A DNA stretch of 64,000 nt, from contig JAJDVX010000019.1 in the NCBI GenBank assembly GCA_022825895.1, positions 1 to 64,000 of the forward strand, given 5' to 3'. The stretch comes from Chloroflexota bacterium. Lineage in GTDB: Bacteria > Chloroflexota > UBA11872. Below the pieces are notes generated by a model, which was not told where the DNA came from, searched no databases, and was given only the letters and a program-made list of their open reading frames with translations. Positions 5,312-62,729 of this stretch are shown here, one piece after another; position 1 is the first letter of the stretch; every line of letters starts with the position of its first letter. Made by a program: the position numbers and the translations under genes.

Positions 5312-5377
5312 CCGTCAACCCTCTCGTCATGCGATCGCGCTGACCTCGGGCCGCGCGGTTGCGATCTGTATGCAACA

Positions 5378-5387
5378 AGTGTACACT
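5378..5387. promoter_or_regulatory. AGTGTACACT palindrome upstream of terminase pair
   Basis: Perfect 10-bp palindrome, one of three exact copies in the window (also 9285-9294 and 45631-45640). Each lies just upstream of a small ORF. It could be an operator, or its TACACT half could be a -10 box. Confidence 0.45.
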
Positions 5388-5514
5388 AACCGCATCCATC
5401 TGACAAGGTGGAGCTCATGCCCGCCCACCATCCCGCTCCGCCGCCTGGCCGCCATCCGCTCTGCGTCCCTCGCCCCGCGAGACCGTCGCAAAACACCACG
5501 CACCCTCGAGAGCT

Positions 5515-5746
5515 CGCCCGCTCTTGCTCCCTCTCCCCGTGGAGACCTTTGCGAACCCCCCTGCTCCTCGAATTTGCAGCCGCTCTTTCTCCCTCTCCCT
5601 TGAGGAGACCTTTGCGTAACCCGATTGACGGGTGTGCGATGTCAATCCCTTCGAGGAGCCGCCGTTCTTCCCCTCTCCAAGGGGAGAGGCAGAGCCCCTC
5701 CTGAGCTTGCCGAAGGATTCGGCCGTCTTCGGCCGAAATCGGTGAG
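5515..5746. repeat. Dispersed repeat block interrupted by IS110
   Basis: Contains CTCTCCAAGGGGAGAGGCAG, CTGAGCTTGCCGAAGGATTC and CTTCGGCCGAAATCGGTGAG. An uninterrupted copy on the opposite strand lies at about 45945-46138. Here the unit stops at GGTGAG (5746) and resumes with GGGGTCTTCCGGGCAACC at 6933, on the far side of the IS110 element. Confidence 0.8.
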
Positions 5747-6932
<1,186 letters not shown>

Positions 6933-7510
6933 GGGGTCTTCCGGGCAACCAAGCCGGGGTTACGCAAAGGTCTCCCCTGGGCAATCTGCGTCCGTTCATA
7001 CTCCCTCTCCCCGTGGGAGACCTTTGCGAAACCCCCTGCTCCTCGAAATTGCAGCCGCTCTTTCTCCCTCTCCCTTGAGGGAGAGGGCTGGGGTGAGGGT
7101 GGCTGCTATCCCAACCACCCACCCAGGGGTCCAGCAACCCGGCCCGGAGAGCTCGCCTCTTGATCCCTCTCGGAGGGAGTGTTGAGGAGAGGGTCGTCCG
7201 CGCACCCAACCACGGATTCCGCAAAGACCTTCCCTGGGCAATCTGCGTCCGTTCTTACTCCCTCTCCCCGTGGAGACCTATGCAAAACGCCCCGAGCCCC
7301 CAAATGTTGGGCGCCTCTTGCTCCCTCTCCCCGCGGGAGAGGGTTGAAGTCAGGGTCTTCAACTCGCGATGCCCACCCCACGCTGACCGTCCCCGCGCCT
7401 CCGACTCGGCCTCCCGACCGCTCGTCCCGCTCTCACCTCTCACTCCTCTACGCTCACTCCTTCCTCCTGGGAGAGAGTCTTTCGGGCAACCAACCCCGGG
7501 CTAGGCAAAG
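6933..7510. repeat. Array of dispersed GC-rich repeats
   Basis: About 580 bp without a credible gene. It contains several units of the CTCCCTCTCCC...GGGAGAGGGCTGGGGTGAGGGT repeat, GGGCAATCTGCGTCCGTTC (twice, near 6982 and 7238) and GTCTTCCGGGCAACCAAGCC modules. These hold inverted GGGAGAGGG/CCCTCTCCC arms able to form hairpins. Confidence 0.8.
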
Positions 7511-9208: not shown

Positions 9209-9284
9209 GTCGTGACCTCCGCGAGCTCCGGCCGCGTGCCTGCAACCTCGAGCCGTCCCTGGTGCTTGCCCGTAGTGCTCTATA

Positions 9285-9294
9285 AGTGTACACT
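9285..9294. promoter_or_regulatory. AGTGTACACT palindrome before interrupted leader ORF
   Basis: Second exact copy of the 10-bp palindrome. It ends 10 nt before the ATG at 9305 and lies 77 bp upstream of the divergent acetyltransferase gene. The context TATAAGTGTACACT could supply a -10 box for the plus-strand leader ORF. Confidence 0.5.
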
Positions 9295-9304
9295 AGGGGC
9301 CCTG

Positions 9305-9527
9305 ATGTCGCAACCCGAGCCCCCAATGCCCTTGCCGCACTTGCCGCCCCCTGTCGCTGTCCCCGCGCCCGGCGACCAGGTGGTCCGGCTCCCGTGCCCG
9401 GCGCCGATCGGTCCGCGGCTCTGCCTGGGCCTTGCAAACCTCGTTCGACGCCACGCCCTGGCCCATCCCCAACCCCGCCGAACTGCGGCCCAGAGCGCCC
9501 CGCCGCAACCGAAGAGTTTTTTGGAAA
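9305..9527 (+). pseudogene. Proline-rich leader ORF, 5' part, cut by IS1595 element
   Basis: Encodes a proline-rich stretch starting MSQPEPPMP and ending SAPPQPKSFLE, at which point the IS1595-like element is inserted. Joining 9305-9527 to 12029-12141 restores 336 nt (112 codons including stop) in one frame, with the core PKSFLEKTLTRA. An intact relative is at 45357-45623. It is reported as disrupted; the small size means coding status is an inference, supported by the coupled start of the gene downstream. Confidence 0.6.
9520..9527. repeat. Left target-site duplication (TTTGGAAA)
   Basis: Eight bases directly left of the IS1595-like element. The right flank has TTCGGAAA at 12021-12028 (7 of 8 match). 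An 8-bp duplication is normal for the IS1595 family. Confidence 0.75.
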
Positions 9528-9553
9528 GGGGCTTATATACCCCGTTAGCCAAG
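9528..9553. repeat. Left terminal inverted repeat of IS1595-like element
   Basis: Starts GGGGCTTATATACCCC and ends TTAGCCAAG. It pairs with the right end at 11995-12020, with mismatches at positions 4, 15, 16 and 18. Confidence 0.85.
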
Positions 9554-9581
9554 TGAAAATGGGTACCTTGCATGCTTCCAG

Positions 9582-9686
9582 CGTTCACGGTCGGACCTCA
9601 GTGCCTTGCCCTGCACCGCCACGCCTAGGCATGACTGGCCTAGCCGTGCCGGGCCACGAGTTTTCAGCTCGGTCCGACCGTGAACG
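9582..9686. repeat. Long hairpin A (16-bp perfect stem)
   Basis: CGTTCACGGTCGGACC at 9582-9597 is the exact reverse complement of 9671-9686. The 73-nt interior holds a second, imperfect hairpin (CACGCCTAGGC / GCCTAGCCGTG, one mismatch). Confidence 0.8.
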
Positions 9687-9708
9687 GTGGGAGCATGACA
9701 CAGGTCTT

Positions 9709-9834
9709 CATAGGCCCAGAGACCACGGGCGAACCCGACCTACCACACGCCAGGCCACGCCTAGCACAGCCATGTCCTAGCCGTGCCACGCCGTGATTCA
9801 CAAGCTAGGTTTGCCCGTGGTCTCTGGGCCTATG
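9709..9834. repeat. Long hairpin B (22-bp perfect stem)
   Basis: The 22 nt at 9709-9730 (starting CATAGGCCCAGAGACC) are exactly complementary to 9813-9834, and pairing extends four more pairs inward with one G-T. The interior again holds CACGCCTAG...CTAGCCGTG. Confidence 0.85.
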
Positions 9835-9958
9835 TCCCGCAGGTGGACGATGTGGGTGGACCCTGCCTAGCCGCGCCGGGCCAAGCCACGCCTAGCCCTT
9901 CGGGGCCTTGCTGGGCCGTGCCTCGCCCTGGTTTCAGGTTGATCGTCCACCTGCGGGA
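9835..9958. repeat. Long hairpin C (17-bp perfect stem)
   Basis: TCCCGCAGGTGGACGAT at 9835-9851 is exactly complementary to 9942-9958. It directly abuts hairpin B. The interior has GCCTAGCCGCG, CCACGCCTAGC and GGGCCGTGCC modules like those of A and B. Confidence 0.82.
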
Positions 9959-9981
9959 CCCCAGTTTGACAGACGCTCTCC

Positions 9982-10010
9982 TTGACACCCGCCCGCCCAT
10001 TGGCTAAAAT
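9982..10010 (+). promoter_or_regulatory. Sigma70-type promoter of the transposase
   Basis: TTGACA at 9982-9987, a 17-nt spacer, and TAAAAT at 10005-10010, 27 nt before the transposase ATG. It lies just downstream of hairpin C. Confidence 0.75.
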
Positions 10011-10037
10011 ACTTCCATAAATAGAGAGGGGCGGCTG

Positions 10038-11000
10038 ATGAGCAGGAACGCGAGCAGCAAGGGACCGGGGCGGGCAGACCGCAAGGGAATGTCCCTGCCC
10101 GAGATCATCCGGCTGTTCCCGGACGATGAGGCCGCCGAGGCGTGGTTCGTGAAGACCCGATGGCCCGAAGGCGTCACCTGCCCGCATTGTCAGTCTGACA
10201 ACATCCTGCACGTCAAGAGCCGCAAGCCGCAGCCCTACCGGTGCCGGGCCTGCCGCAAGCATTTCTCTGTCCGGACCGGCACGCTGATGCACGGCTCCAA
10301 CCTCGGGCTGCAGACTTGGGCGCTGGCCTTTTTCCTGGTGGCGACCGGCATCAAGGGCACGGCCAGCATGAAGCTGCACCGGGACCTCGGCATAACTCAG
10401 AAGACCGCCTGGCACTTGGCGCACCGTATCCGGGAGACTTGGCGGGACAATGCCCCGCAGTTCGCCGGTCCGGTGGAGGCGGACGAGACGTACTTCGGCG
10501 GCAAGGAAGGGAACAAGCACGCGAGCAAGCGCCGGAACGCTGGCCGCGGCAAGGTCGGCAAGACTCCGGTCGCCGGTGTGAAGGACCGGGCGACGGGGAG
10601 GGTAAGCGCGGCGGTGGTGCCGAACACCAAGACCGAGACCCTCCAGCCGTTCGTTGAGGAACGCTTGGAACCGGGGGCGATGGTTTACACCGACGAATGG
10701 TGGGCCTATCGGAACCTCCCGAACCGGCAGGCCGTGCGGCATGGTGTCGGCCAATGGGTCGACGGCCAAGTACACACGAACAATCTCGAGAGCTTTTGGT
10801 CCCTGATGAAGCGCGGTTTTCATGGCTCTTATCACAAGATGAGTCCGAAGCACTTGGACCGGTACGTTCGGGAGTTCGAGGGGCGGCACAACCAGCGGGA
10901 CCTCGACACGATTGACCAGGTGCGCGGGATGGTGCGGGGGACGGAGGGCAAGCGGCTCAGCTACAGGGACCTGACGGCCGGCGGGCCTGCTTATCCCTAG
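10038..11000 (+). CDS. IS1595-family (ISXO2-like) transposase
   Basis: The 320-residue transposase has an N-terminal zinc ribbon (CPHC near residue 54 and CRAC near 74) for DNA binding. The DDE-type core follows: VEADETYFGGK (first acidic residue), YTDEWWAY (second) and HTNNLESFWSLMKRG (third region, with the Asn/Glu typical of this family). AGAGGGGCGG provides a ribosome site before the ATG. The frame is intact. The gene lies between the hairpin array and the passenger genes inside the bounded element. Confidence 0.92.
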   Translation: MSRNASSKGPGRADRKGMSLPEIIRLFPDDEAAEAWFVKTRWPEGVTCPHCQSDNILHVKSRKPQPYRCRACRKHFSVRTGTLMHGSNLGLQTWALAFFLVATGIKGTASMKLHRDLGITQKTAWHLAHRIRETWRDNAPQFAGPVEADETYFGGKEGNKHASKRRNAGRGKVGKTPVAGVKDRATGRVSAAVVPNTKTETLQPFVEERLEPGAMVYTDEWWAYRNLPNRQAVRHGVGQWVDGQVHTNNLESFWSLMKRGFHGSYHKMSPKHLDRYVREFEGRHNQRDLDTIDQVRGMVRGTEGKRLSYRDLTAGGPAYP

Positions 11001-11036
11001 CCGGGGGACACGGCGGGCGGTGTTACTCTACCGGCC

Positions 11037-11108
11037 GCTACACAGTCGGGACTTCCTCGCGGCCTCGGACGGGTCGCGCTGGGTCACTGTGTAGCAACAG
11101 GGAAGTCC
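11037..11108. repeat. Two interleaved inverted repeats after the transposase
   Basis: GCTACACAGT (11037-11046) pairs with ACTGTGTAGC (11086-11095). GGACTTCC (11049-11056) pairs with GGAAGTCC (11101-11108). The arms alternate, so the two stems would form a pseudoknot or be mutually exclusive. Confidence 0.6.
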
Positions 11109-11166
11109 GCCCAGCGGTTCTGTTCGGGGCCGCGTTTGCTACCGGGCCTCCCAAGGGAACCGATCC

Positions 11167-11493
11167 GTGCCGTTCAATGTTGGCCCTTTTGAGATCATCG
11201 TGGCCGCCGTCGTGATTGGCGGCTTCCTTTTGCTCATCACGTCGAAGCAACGGGCGGGACGGCCGCCACAGAGCGAGGAGGCCCGCCTTGCCTCCCGCTC
11301 CCTTGACGAGCTGGTGGCCGAGGGCTGGCGGATCGAATCCGAGTCGACCGAGTACGTGTTTTTGGTGAAGGGGCGGCCGGTCAATCATCTGCTGCACTTT
11401 TTCGTCGGCATTTTCACGCTGGGCGTTTGGTGGATCGTCTGGATACTGGTGGCGGCCAATGGAGGCGAGCGGCGGCATACGGTCAAGCGGTAG
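11167..11493 (+). CDS. Small two-span membrane protein, IS1595 passenger
   Basis: A 108-residue protein with an N-terminal membrane helix (residues ~7-25), a soluble segment (LDELVAEGWRIESESTEYVFLVKG) and a second helix (~78-97, FVGIFTLGVWWIVWILVAANGG), ending in basic residues. The layout of a short soluble domain then HLLHFFVGIFTLGVWW is seen in small bacterial and phage membrane proteins of unknown role. GTG start at 11167. It lies inside the IS1595-like element downstream of the transposase, so it is a passenger gene. Function unknown. Confidence 0.65.
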   Translation: MPFNVGPFEIIVAAVVIGGFLLLITSKQRAGRPPQSEEARLASRSLDELVAEGWRIESESTEYVFLVKGRPVNHLLHFFVGIFTLGVWWIVWILVAANGGERRHTVKR

Positions 11494-11529
11494 GGCAAGG
11501 GTCGGCTGTTCAGACTGGACAGCCGCAGA

Positions 11530-11535
11530 TATAAT
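11530..11535 (+). promoter_or_regulatory. TATAAT candidate -10 box
   Basis: A perfect TATAAT about 80 nt before the gene at 11617. The -35 region is weak. A small hairpin (GGCTGT at 11504-11509 with ACAGCC at 11518-11523) lies just upstream and could end the previous transcript or act as an operator. Confidence 0.4.
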
Positions 11536-11616
11536 GTGCTAGGCGCAGTTGCCCGCCATCGGCGGCCCGACGCCTAATCGGCGGGGAACAGGGACCCTCG
11601 CTACGGAGGAACCGGC

Positions 11617-11814
11617 ATGACGGCAGACGGCGAACGGCTCGCACGCCTAGAGGGTGCCTATGAACACTTGGCAACCAAGGCCGATATTGCCGAACTTCGT
11701 GGGGAACTAAAGGTCGAATTGTCCAACATTGAGAACCGACTGACGCGCTGGGTCATTGGGGCGGCCGGGGTTGCGGCCGGCATCATCATCGCCGTCGATC
11801 GGTTGTGGACCTAA
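11617..11814 (+). CDS. ATKAD-family small coiled-coil/membrane protein, passenger
   Basis: A 65-residue protein. Residues 1-42 form a coiled coil with LARLEGAYEHLATKAD; one membrane helix (~44-60) is followed by the tail AVDRLWT. It matches the product at 48117-48314 in length and at about 35 of 65 positions, so the same small gene is found both inside and outside the element. GGAGG lies 7-8 nt before the ATG. The stop overlaps the next start by one base (TAATG). Function unknown. Confidence 0.7.
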   Translation: MTADGERLARLEGAYEHLATKADIAELRGELKVELSNIENRLTRWVIGAAGVAAGIIIAVDRLWT

Positions 11815-11984
11815 TGCCCCGCAAGCGCAAGCGCGGCCGGCCTCCGGTCAAGACCATGCCGCCGCCGATACCCGACACCCCGGAGAACATCGCCCTTGCG
11901 TGCATGATGGGGCCGCCGAAGACCGAGTGGGACTACCTGAAGGCGGCCCCGGAGAGCCAGAAAGCCGAACCTGTTTCCGATTGA
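11814..11984 (+). CDS. 56-residue basic/proline-rich protein, passenger
   Basis: Encodes a 56-residue protein starting MPRKRKRGRPPVKTMPPP, an AT-hook-like KRGRPP basic patch, then IPDTPENIALACMMGPPK and EWDYLKAAPE. The DTPENIA...GPPKxEWDYLK pattern looks like a conserved small-protein motif. The start codon shares a base with the upstream stop (TAATG), so it is translated with the coiled-coil gene. It may bind DNA through the GRP motif (inference). Confidence 0.6.
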   Translation: MPRKRKRGRPPVKTMPPPIPDTPENIALACMMGPPKTEWDYLKAAPESQKAEPVSD

Positions 11985-11994
11985 CTCGCGGCGG

Positions 11995-12020
11995 CTTGGC
12001 TAGCACGGTATATAAGTCCC
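11995..12020. repeat. Right terminal inverted repeat of IS1595-like element
   Basis: CTTGGCTAGCACGGTATATA then AGTCCC. The reverse complement begins GGGACTTATATACC and matches the left end at 22 of 26 positions. Confidence 0.85.
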
Positions 12021-12028
12021 TTCGGAAA
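12021..12028. repeat. Right target-site duplication (TTCGGAAA)
   Basis: Matches TTTGGAAA at 9520-9527 except at the third base. Confidence 0.75.
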
Positions 12029-12141
12029 AAACTCTTACGCGCGCAACCCGCCCCCCGCCCGCCACCCCGGGTCCCCGCCACCTGCCACCCCAATGCGGCA
12101 AGCTGATCCCCCCTCCCGCACCACCCGGCGAACCTCAGTGA
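12029..12141 (+). pseudogene. Proline-rich leader ORF, 3' part
   Basis: Continues the frame cut by the IS1595-like element, giving KTLTRATRPPP and a proline-rich tail. It ends in TGA at 12139-12141, which overlaps the GTG start of the glycosyltransferase gene (GTGA). The intact homologue at 45 kb overlaps its downstream gene in the same manner. Confidence 0.55.
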
Positions 12142-13643
12142 CCCAGCCGGACCCGCCGCCGCCCCAGCCGCCCATCATCCTCTCGCGCCGCGACCTGGCC
12201 CGAGCCGCCGTCATCACCATGTTTGCCGGCCTCGTTTACCTCCTGTCATCCGGCGCCCACGCCTACAGCGTCGACGAAATCACCAACTACGCCTCGGCCC
12301 GCGCCCTCGTCGAAACCGGGAGCCCTGACCTCGGCGGAGACCAACCGATTCCCCGCGAGCAACTGCTGACCCTCGCGCATCCCACAGCCGACCGATTGAC
12401 TGGCCGCTACGGCCTGCTTTCATGGGCGGCCATCACGCCCGCCTACCTCGTCGCCAAGTGGATCGGTTCAGAGCCACCCTCGCCATCCCCCGCGTTTCCG
12501 CAGCCGAGTGTCGTCCGGCCGTTGGCCGCCTTGCTCTACGGTCCTGTAGTCGCGGCCACCCTTGTGGGCGCGACCTACCTGCTCGGCCGAAACCTCAGCC
12601 TGCGCCCCCGTTACGCCTTGGCCGCCGCGCTGCTACTGGCCTTTGCCAGTCCGCTCTGGGTCTATGCAAAAGGTCTGGCAAATATCCCGCTGGCCGCGCT
12701 CTTGGCGATACTCACCCTGCTCGCAATTTCGACCAATATTCCAGGCGCCCGCCGTTGGGCCATTGCCGGTGCGTTGGCCGGATTGACCGTCGTCGTCCGT
12801 CCGGAGTTGATTGCGTTCGCCTTGGTTGTCGGCACCGTGAGCCTGCTCACCTGGCGGGCCGGCTGGCGAACCGGCCTGACGTGCTCAGGCACATTTGCTG
12901 CTTCGTCGGCGGCAATCGTTCTTCCAGGTGTGGGCCTCTGGAATATCTACCGGACAGGAGAATTCTTCGACGTCGGTTACCGAACGGCCTCAATCCTATG
13001 GCAGACCGACCGCGCGTATATCGGCGTATTCGGCGTGCTGGCCAGTCCGAGTTTCGGCTTGATGGTCTTCATGCCCGTGGCGGCGATCGGCCTTTGGGGG
13101 CTCCTCCGAATGGCGGGAAGCCGACCAATCTGGTTGGCCATGCTCGCGCTTGTCGTAGTAGCGACCATAGGCTACGGATCGTTTCGGGACTGGCACGGCG
13201 GGGTGTCGTGGGGTCCTCGGTATCTAACCGCCGTCACGCCATTCCTTGCGCTTGGTGTGGGCGCGCTTCTCCAGGCGCGCATGACTACCTGGCTGATGCG
13301 GCTGACCACCGCCGGACTGGCCGCATGGTCGCTGGGTCTGTCCGTGCTCGGCGTGCTCTTTGACTACCAGCGAGGCTGGCAAAACTTGTGGGAGCACGGC
13401 GCGCGCCCGGAACAGGTGCTCTGGAATCCTCACTTCTCGCTCATCGGTGCTCACCTGCGCCTGGCCCGACATTGGCAGGACGGCCTGATCGGACCTGACC
13501 TCTATCTATTCCAACGCTTTGGCCCGTGGGCCTTCGTGCTCCTAGCCTTCGGCATGCTCTTTGTGATCGGTGTCGCCCTCGTCGTGCGGGCGCACAGTTC
13601 TGGGTGCGATCACGACTCGCTGCCTACTGCCAGACGTTGGTAG
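12138..13643 (+). CDS. Multi-pass membrane glycosyltransferase-like protein (GT-C fold)
   Basis: The ~501-residue protein has roughly ten hydrophobic spans. Traits of GT-C polyprenyl-phosphate-sugar transferases are a first extracytoplasmic loop with an acidic residue (AYSVDEITNYASA) and the late motif DWHGGVSWGPRYLTAVTPFLALG. It likely transfers a sugar to a cell-envelope acceptor on the outer face; donor and acceptor are unknown. The GTG at 12138 is preferred because it overlaps the leader-ORF stop as GTGA; an ATG at 12093 in frame is possible. The IS1595-like element now separates it from its original leader and promoter. Confidence 0.7.
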   Translation: MTQPDPPPPQPPIILSRRDLARAAVITMFAGLVYLLSSGAHAYSVDEITNYASARALVETGSPDLGGDQPIPREQLLTLAHPTADRLTGRYGLLSWAAITPAYLVAKWIGSEPPSPSPAFPQPSVVRPLAALLYGPVVAATLVGATYLLGRNLSLRPRYALAAALLLAFASPLWVYAKGLANIPLAALLAILTLLAISTNIPGARRWAIAGALAGLTVVVRPELIAFALVVGTVSLLTWRAGWRTGLTCSGTFAASSAAIVLPGVGLWNIYRTGEFFDVGYRTASILWQTDRAYIGVFGVLASPSFGLMVFMPVAAIGLWGLLRMAGSRPIWLAMLALVVVATIGYGSFRDWHGGVSWGPRYLTAVTPFLALGVGALLQARMTTWLMRLTTAGLAAWSLGLSVLGVLFDYQRGWQNLWEHGARPEQVLWNPHFSLIGAHLRLARHWQDGLIGPDLYLFQRFGPWAFVLLAFGMLFVIGVALVVRAHSSGCDHDSLPTARRW

Positions 13644-42221: not shown

Positions 42222-43400
42222 CTACACGGCTTCTACCAGGGCGGCGATTCCCATTCCCCCGCCGACGCAAAGGGCCGCCACACCGCGTTTTGCTCCGCGA
42301 CGTCGCATCTCATGCGTCAGGGTCACGAGGATGCGACAGCCGCTGGCCCCGATGGGATGACCCAGTGCGATGGCGCCGCCGTTGACGTTGACCTTGGCGG
42401 CGTCCAGGTCGAGCAGGCGCAGCACGCCCAGAACCTGACCGGCAAACGCTTCGTTGATTTCAAAGAGGTCAATGTCCTCATCGGTTAGCCCGTGACGGTC
42501 GAGTAGACCTCGAATCGCCTCGACCGGGCCCAGGCCCATCAACCCGGGCTCGATGCCCGCCGTATCGAAGCCGCGCAGTACGTGGTCGTAGCGGTGGCCG
42601 TGGTCGTCCGCCCAGCGGCTGGAAGAAACAACCACCAGCGCCGCGCCGTCGTTGATGCCGGAGGCGTTTCCCGCTGTGACCGTCCCGTCCTCTTGAAACA
42701 CGGGCCGAAGCCCTGCGAGCGCCGAACGGCTGGTCTCTCGCGGGTGCTCGTCAGTGCCGACCTCAACCAGCCTATTGGCGGTATAGGCCGAGATGGGACT
42801 GACCTCCTCTGCCACGCGGTCTCGTGCCGCCTGATAGCGGCGCTGGCTCGCAAGAGCGTAGGCGTCCTGCTGGGCCCGCGAGATGCCGAGCTTGGCGGCG
42901 ATTCGTTCGGCGGTACAGCCCATGTGGATGTGCTCGAAGCTGTCCACCAGCCCGTCGCCCTGCAGCGAATCCACCGGCGAGGCCGTCGGATCGGGCTCAC
43001 CCTGCGCGTCGCGTGGAACCAGGAAGGGCGCACCGGACATGCGTTCGACGCCGCCGGCCAGGACGACGCGGCTCTGTCGCAGCCACACCTGCTGAGCGGC
43101 AAGCTGCACCGCCAGCAACCCGCTGCCGCACACCTGGTTGACGGTAAAGGCGGGTCGTTCGACAGGGATGCCGGCTTGGACCGCGATCTGGCGGGCCACG
43201 TTCATGCCCAGCCCGGCCTGCAGGGCGCAGCCCACAATCACCTGGTCGACCTGTACGGGGTCGATGTGCGTGCGGCGGAGAAGGTCAACGGCGAGTTGGC
43301 GCCCAAGCTCTGACGCGCTTAAGCCAGCCAATGCTCCGAGGTACCTGCCGATTGGGGTTCGCCGGGCGGCCAGAATGACAGCTTCGGGCTGGTCAGGCAC
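42222..43400 (-). CDS. Acetyl-CoA acetyltransferase (thiolase)
   Basis: A ~392-residue thiolase, splitting or making acetoacetyl-CoA. Acyl-carrying Cys91 is in NQVCGSGLLA; the second active-site parts are NGGAIALGHPIGASG (His) and CVGGGMG (Cys). GGAGG lies 6 nt before the GTG at 43400, which overlaps the synthetase stop by 8 bp. Coupled to acetoacetyl-CoA synthetase, so the pair would convert acetoacetate to two acetyl-CoA. Confidence 0.92.
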   Translation of the reverse strand: MPDQPEAVILAARRTPIGRYLGALAGLSASELGRQLAVDLLRRTHIDPVQVDQVIVGCALQAGLGMNVARQIAVQAGIPVERPAFTVNQVCGSGLLAVQLAAQQVWLRQSRVVLAGGVERMSGAPFLVPRDAQGEPDPTASPVDSLQGDGLVDSFEHIHMGCTAERIAAKLGISRAQQDAYALASQRRYQAARDRVAEEVSPISAYTANRLVEVGTDEHPRETSRSALAGLRPVFQEDGTVTAGNASGINDGAALVVVSSSRWADDHGHRYDHVLRGFDTAGIEPGLMGLGPVEAIRGLLDRHGLTDEDIDLFEINEAFAGQVLGVLRLLDLDAAKVNVNGGAIALGHPIGASGCRILVTLTHEMRRRGAKRGVAALCVGGGMGIAALVEAV

Positions 43401-45360
43401 GGGCAGCCTCCGCTTGGAGGAGTTGCGCGCGGAGCGACACATAGACGATCAGGCACTCGGGGTTCGCCAGTGACTCGCGATTGGTCACCGGATCGCCTCG
43501 AAGGATGCGCGTGACGGTCAACTCCGCCAGCTTCCCGTTGCGAGTTCGCGGCAGATCGGGCACGGCAAGAATGCGGCGCGGTACGTGGCGGGGCGAGGCC
43601 GACGTTCGAATCGCGCGTTGAATCTCCGTTCGCAGTGCAACATCAAGCTCGTGCTCGGGTCGAAGGACCACGAAGAGCGCGATTTCGTCGCGGCCTTCGC
43701 GATTCACGGTCGCAGCCAGACCTGCAACGACCTCGGGAATGGTCTCCAAAGGTCGATAGATTTCAGCCGTTCCGATGCGGACGCCGCCCGGCATCAGGGT
43801 TGCGTCGCTGCGGCCGAGAATGACGATGCCGCCGTGTGCCGTGATCTCGATGAAGTCGCCGTGACGCCAGACCCCCGGATACATCTCAAAGTACGACGCG
43901 CGATACCGCTCGCCGTCGGGATCATTCCAAAACCGCACCGGCATCGAGGGGAATGGTCTTCGGCAGACAAGCTCGCCCTTTTGGCTCTGCACCGAGCTCC
44001 CGCGCTCGTCGAAGGCGGCGACATCCATGCCCAACCCAGCGCATTGAATTTCGCCCGCGTAGACCGGAAGCAGCGGATTACCCAGCACAAAGCACGACAC
44101 GATGTCGGTGCCGCCTGAAATGGATGCCAGGTGCAGATTGCCGTTGACGTTGGCGTATACCCAGCGGAAGGCGTCCGGCGACAGCGGGGAGCCGGTGGAT
44201 AGCAGCGTGCGCAGCGACGAGAGGTCGGCTACGTCGCGCGGGCGGATGCGATCGCGCATACAGGCTTCGACAAACGACGCGCTGGTTCCGAAGACCGTTA
44301 CCCCAAGCTCGTCGGCCAGGCGCCAAGCGGTCGAAAGATCGGGGTGGTTCAGGCTGCCCTCGTAGAGGACGAGGGTGCAGCCGGTGGCCAGGGCCGAGAC
44401 CAGCCAGTTCCACATCATCCAACCGCAGGTGGTGAAGTAGACGATCGTGTCGTCGGCCCGCAGGTCGGTGTGGAGTTGGTGTTCCTTGCGGTGTTGCAGG
44501 AGCGTGCCGCCGGCGCCGTGGACCATGCACTTGGGCGCTCCGGTGGTGCCCGACGAGTACAGGATGTAGAGCGGGTGATTGAACGGTAGCGCGGCGAATT
44601 CGGGCTGGTGGCTGGTTGCCAGACTCAGAAGGTCGTCCCAGTTGAGCCAGTTCTTGGGCATCTCGGCCGTTGGCGATCCGCCGAAGGGAACCACGACGAC
44701 GTGCTGGATCGACGGTATCTGCGAGTTGAGGGCCCGGATGATCGGAAGGCAGTCGAAAGGGCGGCCGTTGTAGGTGTAGTGGTCGCTGGCGATGAGGAGG
44801 CGAGGTTCGATCTGGCCGAGGCGGTCGCGGGCGGCGGCGGCGCCGAAGTCGGGTGAGCAGGCGCTCCAGATGGCGCCGAGGCTGGCGCAGGCGAGGAAGG
44901 CGATGACGGTCTCGGGGCCGTTGACCAGGTAGCCGACGACGTGGTCGCCGGGCTGAATGCCCAGGTGGCGCAGGGCGCTGGCACAGCGGCCGACCTGGGT
45001 GCGTAACTCGGCGTAGGTCAGGCGGCGGGTTTGGCCGGACTCGGTGCGGTAGACGAGGGCGAGCTTGTCGTCGCGGCGGCGGAGCAGGTGTTCGGCGTAG
45101 TTGAGGGTGGCGCCGCGGAACCACCGGGTGCCGGGCATGCGGTCGGGGCCCTTGACTTCGACGGGTGGGTCGGCGAAGCGGATGTCGGCGAAGTCGGCGT
45201 AGAGGGACCAGAAGTCGGCGCTGTGGTCGACGGACCAGCGGTGGAGGGCGGGGTAGTCGGGGAAACGCCGGCCGGTGTGGGCCTCGGCGGCGCGCCAGAA
45301 GCGGGCCATGGCGCTGGTGGTGAGCGCAGCCGGGTCGGGGCGCCAGAGGGGGGCGGTCAA
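43393..45360 (-). CDS. Acetoacetyl-CoA synthetase
   Basis: A ~655-residue AMP-forming acyl-CoA synthetase. The family's own start (APLWRPDP...MARFWRAAE) and [12 protein letters not shown] are present; the AMP-binding P-loop is [21 protein letters not shown], with GGTDIVSC and [11 protein letters not shown]; the CoA region has RTRNGKLAE. It activates acetoacetate to acetoacetyl-CoA. The TTG start at 45360 has GGAG upstream, gives the family length, and overlaps the leader-ORF stop (TTGA). Confidence 0.9.
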
Positions 45361-45623
45361 CGGGGGGCTCCGGCGGTGAAATGGATGGGCTTTGCGCGCG
45401 TAAGAGTTTTTTCCAAAAAACTCTTCGGTCGCCGGGGGGCGCTTTGCGGCGGCGAGTGGCGCTGGCTGAGGGGGGACCGGAGGGCAGCGGCGAGGGGGCA
45501 GGGCCGGGACCGAGGGACAGGCTGGGACAGGCCAAATCCCGGCGATGCGGGGGACGGCTGATGGGCGGCAGGGGGCGATAGGGCGGCGGGGGAGGGCATC
45601 GGGGCCGGGGGTTGCGTGGTCAT
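45357..45623 (-). CDS. Proline-rich leader ORF with PKSFLEKTLTRA core
   Basis: An 88-residue ORF starting MTTQPPAPMPSPAA, with about a fifth Pro, then SAPRRPKSFLEKTLTRAKP and a short tail. It matches the interrupted ORF at 9305/12141 at its start and especially in the core. The core DNA is a near-perfect palindrome. Its TGA overlaps the synthetase TTG start (TTGA). The coupling and the recurrence suggest a translated leader that controls the downstream gene; a stable protein function is less likely. Confidence 0.5.
   Translation of the reverse strand: MTTQPPAPMPSPAALSPPAAHQPSPASPGFGLSQPVPRSRPCPLAAALRSPLSQRHSPPQSAPRRPKSFLEKTLTRAKPIHFTAGAPR
45402..45425. repeat. AT-rich perfect hairpin inside leader ORF
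   Basis: AAGAGTTTTTT (45402-45412), CC, then AAAAAACTCTT (45415-45425): an 11-bp perfect inverted repeat in very GC-rich surroundings. With flanks (TTGCGCGCGT on one side, CGGTCGC on the other), it equals the site split by the IS1595-like element. Confidence 0.75.
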
Positions 45624-45630
45624 GCGGGCC

Positions 45631-45640
45631 AGTGTACACT
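45631..45640. promoter_or_regulatory. AGTGTACACT palindrome before leader ORF
   Basis: Third exact copy. On the minus strand it ends 7 nt before the leader ATG at 45623. Candidate operator or extended -10 region. Confidence 0.5.
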
Positions 45641-45768
45641 GAATGTGAACCGACGGCAATGCCAGATGGACCAGGTGAGCGGCACGGCGGCAGGCGCTCC
45701 TCGGATCCGAGGCGCGTTTTGATGATAGATTCGGAGGTGAACTTTTCCAGAATGAGATTGGCTCGCGA

Positions 45769-45944: not shown

Positions 45945-46138
45945 TACGGAGACCTCTGCAAAACCTTGGCTTGGTTGCCCGGAAGACCCCTCACCGATTT
46001 CGGCCGAAGACGCCCGAATCCTTCGGCAAGCTCAGGAGGGGCTCTGCCTCTCCCCTTGGAGAGGGGAAAGAACGGCGGCTCCTCGAGAGGATTGACACCG
46101 CGCACCAGTCGATTGGATTACGAGAAGGTCTCTCTGAG
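45945..46138. repeat. Dispersed repeat block, uninterrupted copy
   Basis: Reverse-complement copy of the block around 5515-5746/6933 without the IS110 element. Includes CTCACCGATTTCGGCCGAAG, GAATCCTTCGGCAAGCTCAG and CTGCCTCTCCCCTTGGAGAG. Confidence 0.8.
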
Positions 46139-57671: not shown

Positions 57672-57815
57672 GACGTGAAACCTCGACCGGAAGACCCCTC
57701 ACCGGTTTCGGCCGAAGACGGCCGAACCTGCCTCTCCCCTTGGAGAGGGTGAAGAGCGGCCCCGCCTTCGCGGACGAGGCGGGGTTTTGCAAAGGTCTCG
57801 GGAAGAGAGAGGGAG
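57672..57815. repeat. Dispersed repeat, partial block
   Basis: GGAAGACCCCTCACCGGTTTCGGCCGAAGACGG and CTGCCTCTCCCCTTGGAGAG modules (shared with the blocks at 5.5-5.7 and 46.0 kb), here truncated. Confidence 0.7.
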
Positions 57816-57836
57816 AAGACGGGTGCCGAAGCATGG

Positions 57837-60104
57837 TTAGGTGCTGGCGGCGACGGCGGCCTGGACTTCGCGGGGGGAGGCGGGGAGGTCGCGGATGCGG
57901 ACGCCGATGGCGTTGGAGATGGCGTTGGCCATGGCAGCCAGGGGCGGGACGATGGGGACTTCGCCGACGCCGCGGACGCCGTAGGGGTGTCCTGGGTTGG
58001 GGACTTCGACGATGACGGTTTCGATCATCGGCAGGTCCAGCGAGGTGGGCATGCGGTAGTCGAGGAAGCTGGCATTGAGCATGCGACCGTCGGGGCTGTA
58101 CACGTACTCCTCGTTGAGCGCCCAGCCGACGCCCTGGGCCACGCCGCCTTCCATCTGGCCCTCCACGTAGGGCGGGTAGATGGCGGTGCCGGCGTCCTGC
58201 AAGGCCGTGTAGCGCAGGACGTCGACCTTGCCGGTCTCGGTGTCGACTTCCACGTCGGCGATGTGGATGGCGAAGGTGTTGCCGGCGGCGTTGGGCGAGG
58301 CGGTGGACTTGCCCACGACTTCCAGGCCGTCTTCCTGTAGGGCGGCGGCGGCCTGGGTGAAGTTGAGGCTGGCACCGTTCTGGCTGAAGACGCCGGCGTC
58401 AAAGCTGATCGACTCGGCCGGTACGTCCCAGTAGTCGGCCAGGCCTTCGACCATCTGGTCCTTGAGGTCCTCGGCGGCCTCGATGGCGGCCCAGCCGGTG
58501 GCGTAGGTGACGCGACTGCCGCCGGTGACGCCGGTGAAGGCGATCGAGTCGGTGTCGGGGACGATGGGATCCACGTCTTCGATGGGAATGCCCAGGAACT
58601 CGGCCAACTGCATGGCGATGGAGGTGCGAGTGCCGCCGATGTCCATGGAGCCTTCCAGCAACGTGACGGTGCCGTCGCCGTTGAGGCGGGCCACGGCGCT
58701 GGACTTGCCGCCGCCGTTGAGCCAGTAGCCGGAGGCCACGCCGCGGCCGCGCCGCCTGGTGCCGGTGGACTCGCCGAGGTCGGATTGCCAGTGGTCGGTG
58801 GCGACCGCCGCATCGATGGTCTCGATGTTGCCGATGGGATGGAAGCGCGTGCCGTCCACCCGCAGGTCGCCTTCCTTGGAGGCGTTGAGGCGTCGGAATT
58901 CGAGCGGGTCCATGTCGAGTTCTTCGCAGATCTCGTCGATGAGAGCGTCCACGGCGAACTCGGCCTGGGGCGCGCCGGGTGCGCGGTAGGCGTGCGACTT
59001 GGGCTTGTTGACGACGACGTCGTAGCCGTCGACCCGGAAGTTCTCGATATCGAACGGGCCGATGCAGCACAGGCAGCCGGCGCTCACGGCTGAGCCGGGG
59101 TATCCGCCAGCCTCGAAGGCGAGGTCGACGTTGACGGCCGTGATCTTGCCCTCGTTGGTCACGCCCATCTTGACCGTCATGAAGGCGCCCGGAGCCGGGC
59201 CGGTGCCGATCAGAACCTCGGTGCGGTTCATGGTCATCTTGACCGGCCGCCCGATCTTGCGCGAGAGCACGGCCGCGAGGGGTTCGAGATAGACGGTGGT
59301 CTTGCCGCCGAATCCGCCGCCGATTTCCGCCGGCAGCACGCGGATCTTCGACTTCGGGTGCTCGAGCATGGTGGCCAGTTCGTCGCGGATGCCGAAATGG
59401 CCCTGCGAACTGGATTCCACGATCAGGTGGCCGTCCTGGTTCCAGTGGGCCAGGGCGTTGTGGGGTTCGATGTAGCCCTGGTGGACCATGGCGGTGGAGT
59501 AGGACCGCTCCATCACCAGGTCAGCCGCGGCATAGCCGGCCTCAACGTCGCCTTCCTCGTAGATCAGGTGCTTGGCGATGTTGCTGGGCTTGTTGTCGAA
59601 GACGCCGCCGGTCTCGGTGTAGAGGTCGTCCAGGATGACGGGGGCGTCGTCCTGCATGGCTTCGCGGACGTCGAGCACGGGCGGAAGGACTTCGTAGTCC
59701 ACGTCGATCAGGCTGAGGGCTTCCTCGGCCTCGTGGACGCTTGCGGCGGCCACGGCGGCAATGACTTGACCCTCGTAGGTGACGCGGCCGCGGGCGATGA
59801 CGCGCTCGGCCATGTAGCGCAGGCTCTGCATGCCCGACTCGTTGGCCTCGGCCTCACCGGCGCCCGGGTCCGGGAAGTCGTCACCGGTCACCACGGCCAG
59901 CACCTGGCCGGCGGCCTCGGCGCGGGACGTGTCGATACCACGGATGCGAGCCCTGGCGTGCGGGCTGCGCAGCACTTTGCCCCAGACCATGCCGGGCATG
60001 TTGGCGTCCACGCCGTAGCGTGCGCGTCCGGTGACCTTGTCCACGCCGTCGTGACGGACCGGTCGGGTCCCAACGACTCGATACGCGCCGTTGCCTGCTG
60101 TCAT
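57837..60104 (-). CDS. Xanthine dehydrogenase-family Mo-binding subunit
   Basis: A 755-residue molybdopterin-binding subunit. It includes RPVRHDGVDKVTGRARYGVD, MVHQGYIEPHNALAHW, EIGGGFGGKTTVYLEPLAA, HAYRAPGAPQAEFAVDAL and the late GVGEVPIVPPLAAMANAI (with the conserved catalytic Glu). It would hydroxylate an aromatic or heterocyclic substrate; exact substrate unknown. GGAGCAGGGA precedes the ATG. It is a paralogue of the product at 60432, last in the operon. Confidence 0.92.
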   Translation of the reverse strand: MTAGNGAYRVVGTRPVRHDGVDKVTGRARYGVDANMPGMVWGKVLRSPHARARIRGIDTSRAEAAGQVLAVVTGDDFPDPGAGEAEANESGMQSLRYMAERVIARGRVTYEGQVIAAVAAASVHEAEEALSLIDVDYEVLPPVLDVREAMQDDAPVILDDLYTETGGVFDNKPSNIAKHLIYEEGDVEAGYAAADLVMERSYSTAMVHQGYIEPHNALAHWNQDGHLIVESSSQGHFGIRDELATMLEHPKSKIRVLPAEIGGGFGGKTTVYLEPLAAVLSRKIGRPVKMTMNRTEVLIGTGPAPGAFMTVKMGVTNEGKITAVNVDLAFEAGGYPGSAVSAGCLCCIGPFDIENFRVDGYDVVVNKPKSHAYRAPGAPQAEFAVDALIDEICEELDMDPLEFRRLNASKEGDLRVDGTRFHPIGNIETIDAAVATDHWQSDLGESTGTRRRGRGVASGYWLNGGGKSSAVARLNGDGTVTLLEGSMDIGGTRTSIAMQLAEFLGIPIEDVDPIVPDTDSIAFTGVTGGSRVTYATGWAAIEAAEDLKDQMVEGLADYWDVPAESISFDAGVFSQNGASLNFTQAAAALQEDGLEVVGKSTASPNAAGNTFAIHIADVEVDTETGKVDVLRYTALQDAGTAIYPPYVEGQMEGGVAQGVGWALNEEYVYSPDGRMLNASFLDYRMPTSLDLPMIETVIVEVPNPGHPYGVRGVGEVPIVPPLAAMANAISNAIGVRIRDLPASPREVQAAVAAST

Positions 60105-60425: not shown

Positions 60426-60431
60426 GGTCGG

Positions 60432-62729
60432 TTACGCCTGGGCGGCCAGCGCCGCCTGCACGCGCGGCGGCGACATGGGCAGATGGCTCATGCGGAGGCC
60501 GGTCGCATCGTGGATCGCGTTGGCCACGGCCGCGGGGGGCGGCACGATGGGTACTTCGCCCACGCCGCGAACACCGTAAGGATGCCCCGGGTTGGGCACC
60601 TCGACGATGATCGTCTCGATGTTGGGAACGTCGAGCGCGGTCGGCATGCGGTAGTCCAGCAGGCTGGCGTTGAGCAAGTGACCGTCGTCGTCGTAGACGT
60701 ACTCCTCGTTCAGCGCCCAACCGACGCCCTGCACGACGCCGCCCTGCATCTGGCCTTCGACGTATGGCGGATAGATGGCAACGCCGGCGTCCTGAACGGC
60801 GGTGTACCGCAGGATTTCGACCTTGCCGGTTTCCTCATCCACTTCCACGTCGGCGATGTGAACGGCGAAGGCGCCACCCTCGCGGGTGGGCGTGACGGTG
60901 TTCTTGCCGATGGGGAATACGCCCTCTTCCTCCAACAGCCCGGCGGCTTCGCGCACGGTGGCCGAGTTGCCGTTGGCCGAGAACGTGCCGTCGGCGTGGG
61001 TGATCGCGTCAGCGGCGACATCCCAGAGGTCCGCCAGCCCTTCGGCGATCTGGTCCTTCATGTCGTTGGCCGCGTTGTGGGCGGCCAGACCGGTGGCAAA
61101 GGTGACCCGGCTGCCGCCGGTGACGTCGGTCTGCCCGACCGAGTCGGTGTCCGCCACGATGGGGTCCACGTCCTCGATCGCGATGCCCAACGTCTCCGCG
61201 AACTGCATGGCAACCGACGTGCGGGTGCCGCCGATGTCGGTCGAGCCCTCGAGCAGCGTCACGCTGCCGTCGCTGTTCAGCTTTGCGATCACGCTGGAGG
61301 TGAAGCCGATGTTGAACCAGAACCCGGAGGCGATACCGCGGCCGCGCTTCTTGCCCGGGGCGGTTTCCAGCGGGGTCTGCCACTGGGCGGAGTCGCGCGC
61401 GGCCTCCATGCACTCGATGTGACCGATGCGCGGATAGGGCGGCTGGGCGAGCTGCCAGTCGCCTTCCTTGGCACTGTTCTTGAGGCGGAACTCGACCGGA
61501 TCGATGTCCAGCGTGCGGCAGATTTCGTCCACCACCGTCTCGCTGGCGAACTCGGCGTGGGTGGCGCCGGGCGCACGGTAGGCGTGGGTCTTGGGCTTGT
61601 TGACGACGACGTCAAAGCCTTCGACCTTGGCGTTGGGCATGTTGTACGGCGCGAAGACGCAGCGGCAGCCAGCGCCCACGACCGACCCGGGATAGCCGCC
61701 GGCATCGAACGCCAGGTTTGCGTAACCGGCGGTAATCATGCCGTCGTTGGTGACGCCCATCTTCACGCGCACGTAGCCGCCCGGCGTAGGGCCCGTCGCC
61801 TTCAGCACGTCGGCCCGATCCATGGCCATCTTGACCGGATGACCAGTCTGCTGGGAGAGCAGGGCGGCCAGGGGTTCCAGGTAAGCCGTGGTCTTGCCGC
61901 CGAACCCGCCGCCGATCTCCATCGGCACGACGTGGATCTTGGTGATGGGGTGATTGAGCAGGTCGGCCAGTTCCTGCCGGATGGTGAAGGCGCCCTGGGA
62001 ACTGCACCAGACGTGCAGATGCCCGTCCTTGAGCCAGTTGGCCGTGGCGTTATGGGTTTCGATGTAGCCCTGGTGGACGACGCCGAAGGTGAACTCACGG
62101 TCGACGACCAGGTCGGCCTCGGCGAAGCCGGCGTCGACGTCGCCAACCTCGTACAGCATTTCCGCCGCGACGTTGCTGGGCTCGTCGGCGGTGGTGCCGT
62201 CGGCCTTGGCGGTGTAGAGGTCCTCGATGATGACCGGAGCGTCCGGCTTCATCGCGTCCCAGACCTCGAGGACCGGGTCGAGCACTTCATACTCGACGTC
62301 GATCAGCTTGAGGGCCTCGGCGGCGATGTGCTGGTTGGTGGCCGCCACCGCGGCAACGGCATGCCCGTGGTAGTGAACCTTGCCGCGGGCGAGCATGTTG
62401 GCGCTCTTGAACTTGACCGGAAGGCCGGGCGCCTCGCCGCCGGTGGTGAGCTTGTCGCCCGGGTCGGGCAGGTCGGCACTGGTGATGACGGCACTTACGC
62501 CGTGCAGGGCCTCGGCGCGGCTGGCGTCGATGCTGACGATGCGCGCGTGGGCATGCGGGCTGCGCAGCACCTTGCCGTGCAACTGGCCGGGCAGATTGAT
62601 GTCGGAGCCGTAGCGCGCTTCGCCGGTGACCTTTTCAAGGCCGTCGTGGCGAATCGGCCGGGTTCCGATGACCTTGTATTCCTCGTCGTGATGCTTGATT
62701 TTGGGAGCGACTCGGGTGTCAATGGCCAT
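60432..62729 (-). CDS. Xanthine dehydrogenase-family Mo-binding subunit
   Basis: A ~765-residue subunit similar along its length to the one at 57837: RPIRHDGLEKVTGEARYGSD, VVHQGYIETHNATANW, EIGGGFGGKTTAYLEPLAALL, HAYRAPGATHAEFASETVV, and GVGEVPIVPPPAAVANAI. The ATG at 62729 follows GGAGG (7 nt), 2 bp after the 2Fe-2S gene stop. It forms the active-site subunit with the FAD and 2Fe-2S proteins. Confidence 0.92.
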   Translation of the reverse strand: MAIDTRVAPKIKHHDEEYKVIGTRPIRHDGLEKVTGEARYGSDINLPGQLHGKVLRSPHAHARIVSIDASRAEALHGVSAVITSADLPDPGDKLTTGGEAPGLPVKFKSANMLARGKVHYHGHAVAAVAATNQHIAAEALKLIDVEYEVLDPVLEVWDAMKPDAPVIIEDLYTAKADGTTADEPSNVAAEMLYEVGDVDAGFAEADLVVDREFTFGVVHQGYIETHNATANWLKDGHLHVWCSSQGAFTIRQELADLLNHPITKIHVVPMEIGGGFGGKTTAYLEPLAALLSQQTGHPVKMAMDRADVLKATGPTPGGYVRVKMGVTNDGMITAGYANLAFDAGGYPGSVVGAGCRCVFAPYNMPNAKVEGFDVVVNKPKTHAYRAPGATHAEFASETVVDEICRTLDIDPVEFRLKNSAKEGDWQLAQPPYPRIGHIECMEAARDSAQWQTPLETAPGKKRGRGIASGFWFNIGFTSSVIAKLNSDGSVTLLEGSTDIGGTRTSVAMQFAETLGIAIEDVDPIVADTDSVGQTDVTGGSRVTFATGLAAHNAANDMKDQIAEGLADLWDVAADAITHADGTFSANGNSATVREAAGLLEEEGVFPIGKNTVTPTREGGAFAVHIADVEVDEETGKVEILRYTAVQDAGVAIYPPYVEGQMQGGVVQGVGWALNEEYVYDDDGHLLNASLLDYRMPTALDVPNIETIIVEVPNPGHPYGVRGVGEVPIVPPPAAVANAIHDATGLRMSHLPMSPPRVQAALAAQA

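Follow-up and report, generated by a model that had tools for sequence, protein, structure and literature searches.

Control of gene expression by leader peptides is normally worked out operon by operon and tied to one metabolite. In the translated-leader attenuators that come closest to the DNA considered here, a promoter, a translated Pro-containing leader and an RNA structure precede the gene (the mgtCBR leader, PMC3641672; EF-P/poly-Pro coupling, PMC5021804). REP sequences (GTAG- or CGTC-tagged, PMC3733652) are short multi-copy palindromes; the same survey lists CGTC repeats from five other phyla, Chloroflexota not being among them, and REPs have been reported as targets of insertion sequences (PMC1525189). 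Rickettsia palindromic elements (RPEs; cited in PMC3733652) are palindromic DNA lying in frame within the ORFs of unrelated genes. The module described below resembles the attenuators in its promoter-like motif, putatively translated leader and hairpin, the REPs in being a multi-copy short palindrome hit by insertions, and the RPEs in carrying palindromic DNA in frame.

Two copies of the module in the window

An earlier note on the window (the whole 64,000-nt stretch of Chloroflexota DNA analysed here) had described two related loci, 45357-45623 and the split 9305/12141, in which a Pro-rich leader ORF ends on the start codon of the next gene. Both are real, with coordinates and overlaps (TTGA, GTGA) as it gave them, and the features are as follows.

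45631-45659 (45659-45631 as read), minus strand: promoter-like motif of copy 1, TTGCCGTCGGTTCACATTCAGTGTACACT, with AGTGTACACT as its -10 end (see the logo below)
45357-45623, minus strand: Pro-rich leader ORF of copy 1, ATG 45623 to TGA 45359-45357
45402-45425, minus strand: 24-bp perfect palindrome of copy 1, AAGAGTTTTTTGGAAAAAACTCTT, read in frame as KSFLEKTL and able to fold into a hairpin
43393-45360, minus strand: gene of the acyl/acetoacetyl-CoA synthetase type downstream of copy 1 (Pfam AMP-binding, ACAS_N)
9266-9294, plus strand: promoter-like motif of copy 2, TTGCCCGTAGTGCTCTATAAGTGTACACT
9305-9527, plus strand: leader ORF of copy 2 from ATG 9305 to the insertion point, ending with the left half of the palindrome (9512-9527)
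9528-12020, plus strand: IS1595-family insertion of ~2.49 kb in the centre of the copy 2 palindrome, transposase at 10038-11000
12021-12141, plus strand: duplicated target and right half of the palindrome (12021-12036), then the remainder of the leader to TGA 12139-12141
12138-13643, plus strand: gene downstream of copy 2, GTG start
5359-5387, plus strand: third promoter copy, TTGCGATCTGTATGCAACAAGTGTACACT, followed by AAGGTGGAG and an ATG

The TTG start of the synthetase gene overlaps the copy 1 leader stop (TTGA, 45357-45360), and the GTG start of the gene behind copy 2 overlaps its leader stop (GTGA, 12138-12141). The copy 1 leader has a second in-frame ATG at 45599, 24 nt past ATG 45623. 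Pfam gave no match to the copy 1 leader ORF and, at 1e-5, none to the gene at 12138-13643, taken in the earlier note for a membrane glycosyltransferase; no palindrome was found behind the third promoter.

Once the insertion is left out, the two copies agree over ~38 bp (ACCG-24 bp-ACGCGCGCAA), in keeping with the claim that the core DNA is identical while the rest diverges, and the expectation of 0 matches to the palindrome in shuffled sequence rules out a chance palindrome. The core peptide reported on an AT-rich palindrome is indeed KSFLEKTL, but the Pro placed before it is Leu in most copies. Similarly, AGTGTACACT does precede the ATG at both loci (it occurs at 9285, 45631 and 5378 in the window) but does not stand alone, being the -10 end of a sigma70-like promoter motif.

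Range and promoter motif

With a covariance model built on the palindrome plus flanks, 219 copies (summed over its result table) turned up in 11 genomes of the same genus and 0 in 140 others, the latter including the sister genus as well as two deep members of the genus itself. A search for exact or near-exact patterns gave hits in the same 11 genomes, out of 13 of the genus, and in 0 of 48 other genomes. Individual genomes carry 6-30 palindrome copies; the genome of the window itself has 13 exact ones plus close variants. The named matching records are Chloroflexi/Chloroflexota metagenome bins, and bin names such as RHO and COS (cf. PMC8163846) suggest that the host clade is sponge-associated. 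No palindrome copies were found in viral contigs or plasmids, which led us to reject a viral or plasmid origin, and no Rfam family matched above its gathering score, so that a known RNA family was rejected. As far as our literature search went, the module is undescribed; among the genomes searched it is confined to one clade.

Pattern searches placed a promoter-like motif, TTGCC-N18-TACACT, upstream of 95 of the 102 distinct copies with at least 750 nt of upstream sequence, at a variable distance of about 100-740 nt from the palindrome. The logo consists of TTGCC, then GT, C and C at fixed positions of the spacer, AGTGTACACT (the -10 hexamer TACACT with conserved bases ahead of it), CGCAACC at +15 to +21 and a start codon near +31. 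About 21 such promoter sites were counted in the window's own genome, with this palindrome or another hairpin behind nearly all of them. The consensus around the palindrome is CCnAAAAnGCRCCCCGCnGCCTC-[24 bp]-AYnGCGCGC, flanked by CCTC or ACCG in nearly all copies. Promoter and hairpin are the conserved parts of a module whose middle is unconserved, and their order and orientation are constant among copies.

Conservation of the hairpin

The palindrome is nearly invariant although its codons are AT-rich within a GC-rich genome, and beside it third codon positions are as conserved as first and second positions. Its centre is GG, also AG, and in one ortholog CC, with a constant orientation in nearly all copies. 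Rare variants alter both arms (TTTC/GAAA, AGGAG/CTCCT) and keep the pairing; in the alignment 98.9% of cells pair, and at two pairs both sides have changed. Part of the near-invariance is by construction, since the palindrome was itself used in part to collect the sample; the two-sided changes are the stronger evidence. Because the arms change together and synonymous sites are conserved, we conclude, in agreement with the earlier note, that selection acts on nucleic-acid structure.

A second hairpin family, CTGTCTCTSGCCAGCC...GGCTGGCSAGAGACAG, unrelated to the palindrome, lies behind the same promoter; 638 of its 652 alignment cells are paired, and compensated pairs are numerous. This family shows no frame lock (7/5/5 over the three phases) and thereby serves as an internal control for the palindrome frame result below. 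The hairpins lie on the sense strand and lack the U-run of an intrinsic terminator. Some leaders, namely L062 (~306 nt upstream of the palindrome), L066 (~147 nt upstream) and L128, hold two hairpins of the same type in tandem, and compensated variants AGGAGTTTCTTAGAAGAAACTCCT and AGGAGGTTCTTGGAAGAAACTCCT are found among these.

The leader reading frame

With start codons accepted 28-47 nt past the -10 (typically an ATG or GTG at ~31 nt), the start is in frame with the palindrome, so as to read KSFLEKTL, at 74 of the 91 loci, or in 30 of the 38 when counted by ortholog group (p 1e-8); some 20% of loci have the start in another frame. The tested loci have 56 different leader lengths, from 97 to 711 nt, and frame 0 of the in-frame leaders contains 2 stops, where the other two frames contain 46 and 28, with ~37 expected. 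Of 31 groups, 27.5 keep frame 0 open between the palindrome and the start of the gene, compared with 16.7 and 18.9 for the other frames. At convergent loci, where the next gene faces the leader, the frame lock is kept in 11 of 13 cases (stops 0/7/5). These loci are left unexplained if the frame lock simply follows from ribosomes being passed on to the next gene. The persistence of the lock there indicates selection for translating the leader as far as the hairpin, and not for ribosome delivery alone.

The Pro-rich N-terminus noted at both loci extends to leaders in general but largely follows from the DNA, which is about 50% C. This C-richness is only moderately above that of the surroundings; a Rho site deduced from it alone is a weak proposal, the DNA upstream of the promoter being C-rich as well. 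Several leader ORFs continue for hundreds of codons with no defined C-terminus, and substitutions between leaders are spread over the codon positions (136/105/182).

Downstream genes

The earlier note's statement that the downstream genes are unrelated is borne out by Pfam and sequence. Pfam identifies a glycogen debranching enzyme, a DegT aminotransferase, a dimethylformamidase-like protein, a sulfatase, a Clp-type ATPase, NfeD and a solute-binding protein; a diaminopimelate epimerase and a UvrD-type helicase were judged from sequence. In the earlier note, a lack of further copies in relatives, or copies placed away from gene starts, was said to favour a simple mobile repeat. The 219 copies are spread over 11 genomes of the genus, and with gene direction judged by GC phase, 33 of 42 ortholog groups are codirectional and nine convergent, so that the module withstands this refutation in 33 of the 42 groups.

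An overlap of leader stop and gene start (ATGA, GTGA or TTGA), described at both window loci, is not general: it occurs in roughly seven of the 31 codirectional groups and, in addition, at the 9305 copy, and elsewhere the leader is fused in frame to the gene, overlaps it out of frame or faces a convergent gene. This minority, and the spread of gene phase relative to the palindrome over groups (12/8/11), led us to reject general stop/start coupling. For genes in the -1 phase, -1 frameshifting at U6/A6 runs is weakened as an explanation by a stop in that frame at the palindrome edge in some orthologs. The idea of a portable module holds in its constant place relative to promoter and start codon, its stop-protected frame and its presence or absence between species, but coupling to the next gene is not its whole function, given the in-frame convergent loci.

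The solute-binding lipoprotein gene is the sole locus showing replacement of a native N-terminus. The outgroup genome allows the protein to begin with MALRAVGGALLAGALLAAC. In place of this start and n-region, the clade members shown have a leader that ends in KSFLEKTLTRA, or in a sequence close to it, and is joined to the hydrophobic stretch; no ATG or GTG start was found between the palindrome and the mature lipoprotein. A TTG start inside the palindrome was rejected because several orthologs have TTA there. Replacement of the native start and n-region, with no ATG or GTG in between, strongly suggests from gene structure that the leader start codon is in use at this gene.

Copying, loss and insertions

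Copies before different, non-orthologous genes share a block from roughly -110 to +55 around the palindrome, and at uvrD the module is present in the seven genomes shown and absent from the window's own genome. From these shared blocks and this difference between species, we conclude that the module is copied and lost. No terminal repeats or target duplication of the module's own were seen by eye at the uvrD presence/absence pair. CGTC-REP-like hairpins (CGTCATTCCGGCG...CGGAATCCAG) occupy the same leader slot, upstream of the palindrome, at L131, L134, L141 and L142.

Besides the insertion in the window, a separate one interrupts the palindrome centre in a sister genome (L288). The transposase of the window insertion belongs to the IS1595 family (PF12762, E 9.5e-42), and the flanks TTTGGAAA/TTCGGAAA form an 8-bp target duplication with one mismatch. 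This element is far longer than its transposase gene, having internal inverted repeats (9571-9697, 9709-9834) and two small ORFs with no Pfam match that may be passengers. Of the L288 palindrome, only the right half of the insertion site lies within the fetched stretch; the insertion there (left of position 1394) differs from that of the window, ends at the same palindrome point and carries an ORF that, judged from its translation, resembles a DNA methyltransferase. Other repetition in the window includes a further dispersed repeat (GGAGACCTTTGC..., CTCTCCCC..., TTCGGCCGAAG...; 5479-5746, 6934-7336, 45948-46068 and 57687-57726), up to 99% alike over 79 nt, and adjacent long ORFs on the minus strand (57835-60077 and 60430-62672) with stretches of 70-76% identical DNA, probably a tandem gene duplication.

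Proposed mechanism and alternatives

At the level of sequence, these comparisons establish the promoter-leader-hairpin architecture, protection of the frame, conservation of hairpin structure and placement at unrelated genes. We tentatively propose, at somewhat short of even confidence, that the module is a lineage-specific, multi-copy 5' leader in which translation through the in-frame hairpin gates expression. The sigma70-type promoter would start the transcript a few nt past the -10, and ribosomes would begin at the ATG or GTG ~31 nt past it, translating a C-rich, Pro-rich leader of variable length in frame into the hairpin shortly before the next gene. Ribosomes traversing the leader would melt the hairpin and cover the C-rich RNA, allowing the gene to be expressed; poor initiation or movement on the leader, for example at Pro runs, would let the hairpin form, and transcription or the downstream RNA would then be cut short by Rho, pausing or RNase. 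We infer the transcription start, translation itself and the gating step with its direction and signal. A translated-leader gate is preferred because the frame protection, the interchangeable hairpins and the codirectional bias all agree with it; Rho is encoded in the window's own genome, and the finding that poly-Pro translation prevents Rho and hairpin termination (PMC5021804) is a biochemical precedent. Counted against it are the missing U-run, the moderate C-richness, the out-of-frame fifth of loci, the nine convergent groups, a second hairpin family that is not frame-locked and a uvrD gene in the window's own genome that has no module. The broader proposal, that promoter, translated leader and exchangeable hairpin form one portable cassette acting as a clade-wide device to gate unrelated genes, at least one of which has lost its own start codon, is possible but rather doubtful.

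Chief among the alternatives is a palindromic repeat (REP-, RPE- or MITE-like), mobile or recombining, that carries a promoter and has spread between loci, its conservation reflecting copying rather than regulation. The block shared by non-orthologous copies, the CGTC-REP-like hairpins in the same slot (compare PMC3733652), the hits of two insertions on the palindrome centre, such as have been reported for REPs (PMC1525189), the difference between species at uvrD and the restriction to one clade all agree with such a repeat. We nevertheless consider it on balance unlikely, since one frame avoids stops across very different leader lengths, promoter and hairpin are conserved while the middle is not, order and orientation behind the promoter are constant, and the uvrD pair, inspected by eye, gave no terminal repeats or target duplication. 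A combination, in which a regulatory unit was spread by recombination or transposition, is quite possible. That the leader is instead a functional small protein or N-terminal extension with a conserved KSFLEKTL end, the downstream gene being incidental, would explain why frame 0 is protected even at convergent loci (11/13; stops 0/7/5) and why the leader is the only ATG- or GTG-started N-terminus of the lipoprotein. Such a protein is improbable, however, given synonymous sites close to the palindrome that are no less conserved than other sites, leader substitutions over all codon positions, ORFs extending for hundreds of codons to no defined C-terminus and no Pfam match. A perfect, near-invariant palindrome with a GG, AG or, in one ortholog, CC centre would also suit the binding of a nucleoid or regulatory protein to duplex DNA, its in-frame reading then being no more than inherited; this is quite improbable in view of the frame protection and stop avoidance, the constant orientation of the centre in nearly all copies and the occurrence of an unrelated hairpin behind the same promoter.

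Comparison with known systems

Returning to the translated-leader gate, the promoter and short ORF before a gene that mark leader-peptide attenuators are seen here in sequence features (95/102, 74/91 and stop avoidance). Unlike the described translated-leader attenuators, the module stands in dozens of copies before unrelated genes with a highly variable leader length; its leader codons do not match the function or pathway of the controlled gene, a terminator/antiterminator pair was not identified in it, and its conserved hairpin has no U-run. Compared with REPs, which are extragenic and have no tie to a promoter or frame, the module is fixed in place and orientation behind its promoter and in frame, and its 24-bp palindrome, at 6-30 copies per genome, has no GTAG or CGTC tag, although CGTC-like units occur in the same leaders and the palindrome is likewise a target of insertion. 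RPEs are described inside protein genes, whereas the frame of the module is that of a leader started within it from its own promoter; of the terminal inverted repeats and target duplications that mark MITEs, none were seen by eye at the uvrD pair. A promoter-leader-hairpin unit that stands ahead of unrelated genes, about 220 times over 11 genomes, keeps its frame across leaders of 97-711 nt and accepts unrelated hairpins in the same slot would, if selfish, be a palindromic element that supplies a promoter and start codon of its own and by them has captured genes of the host. If regulatory, it would be an attenuator that is both modular and portable, and its copies would form a natural data set for comparing what a translated leader requires.
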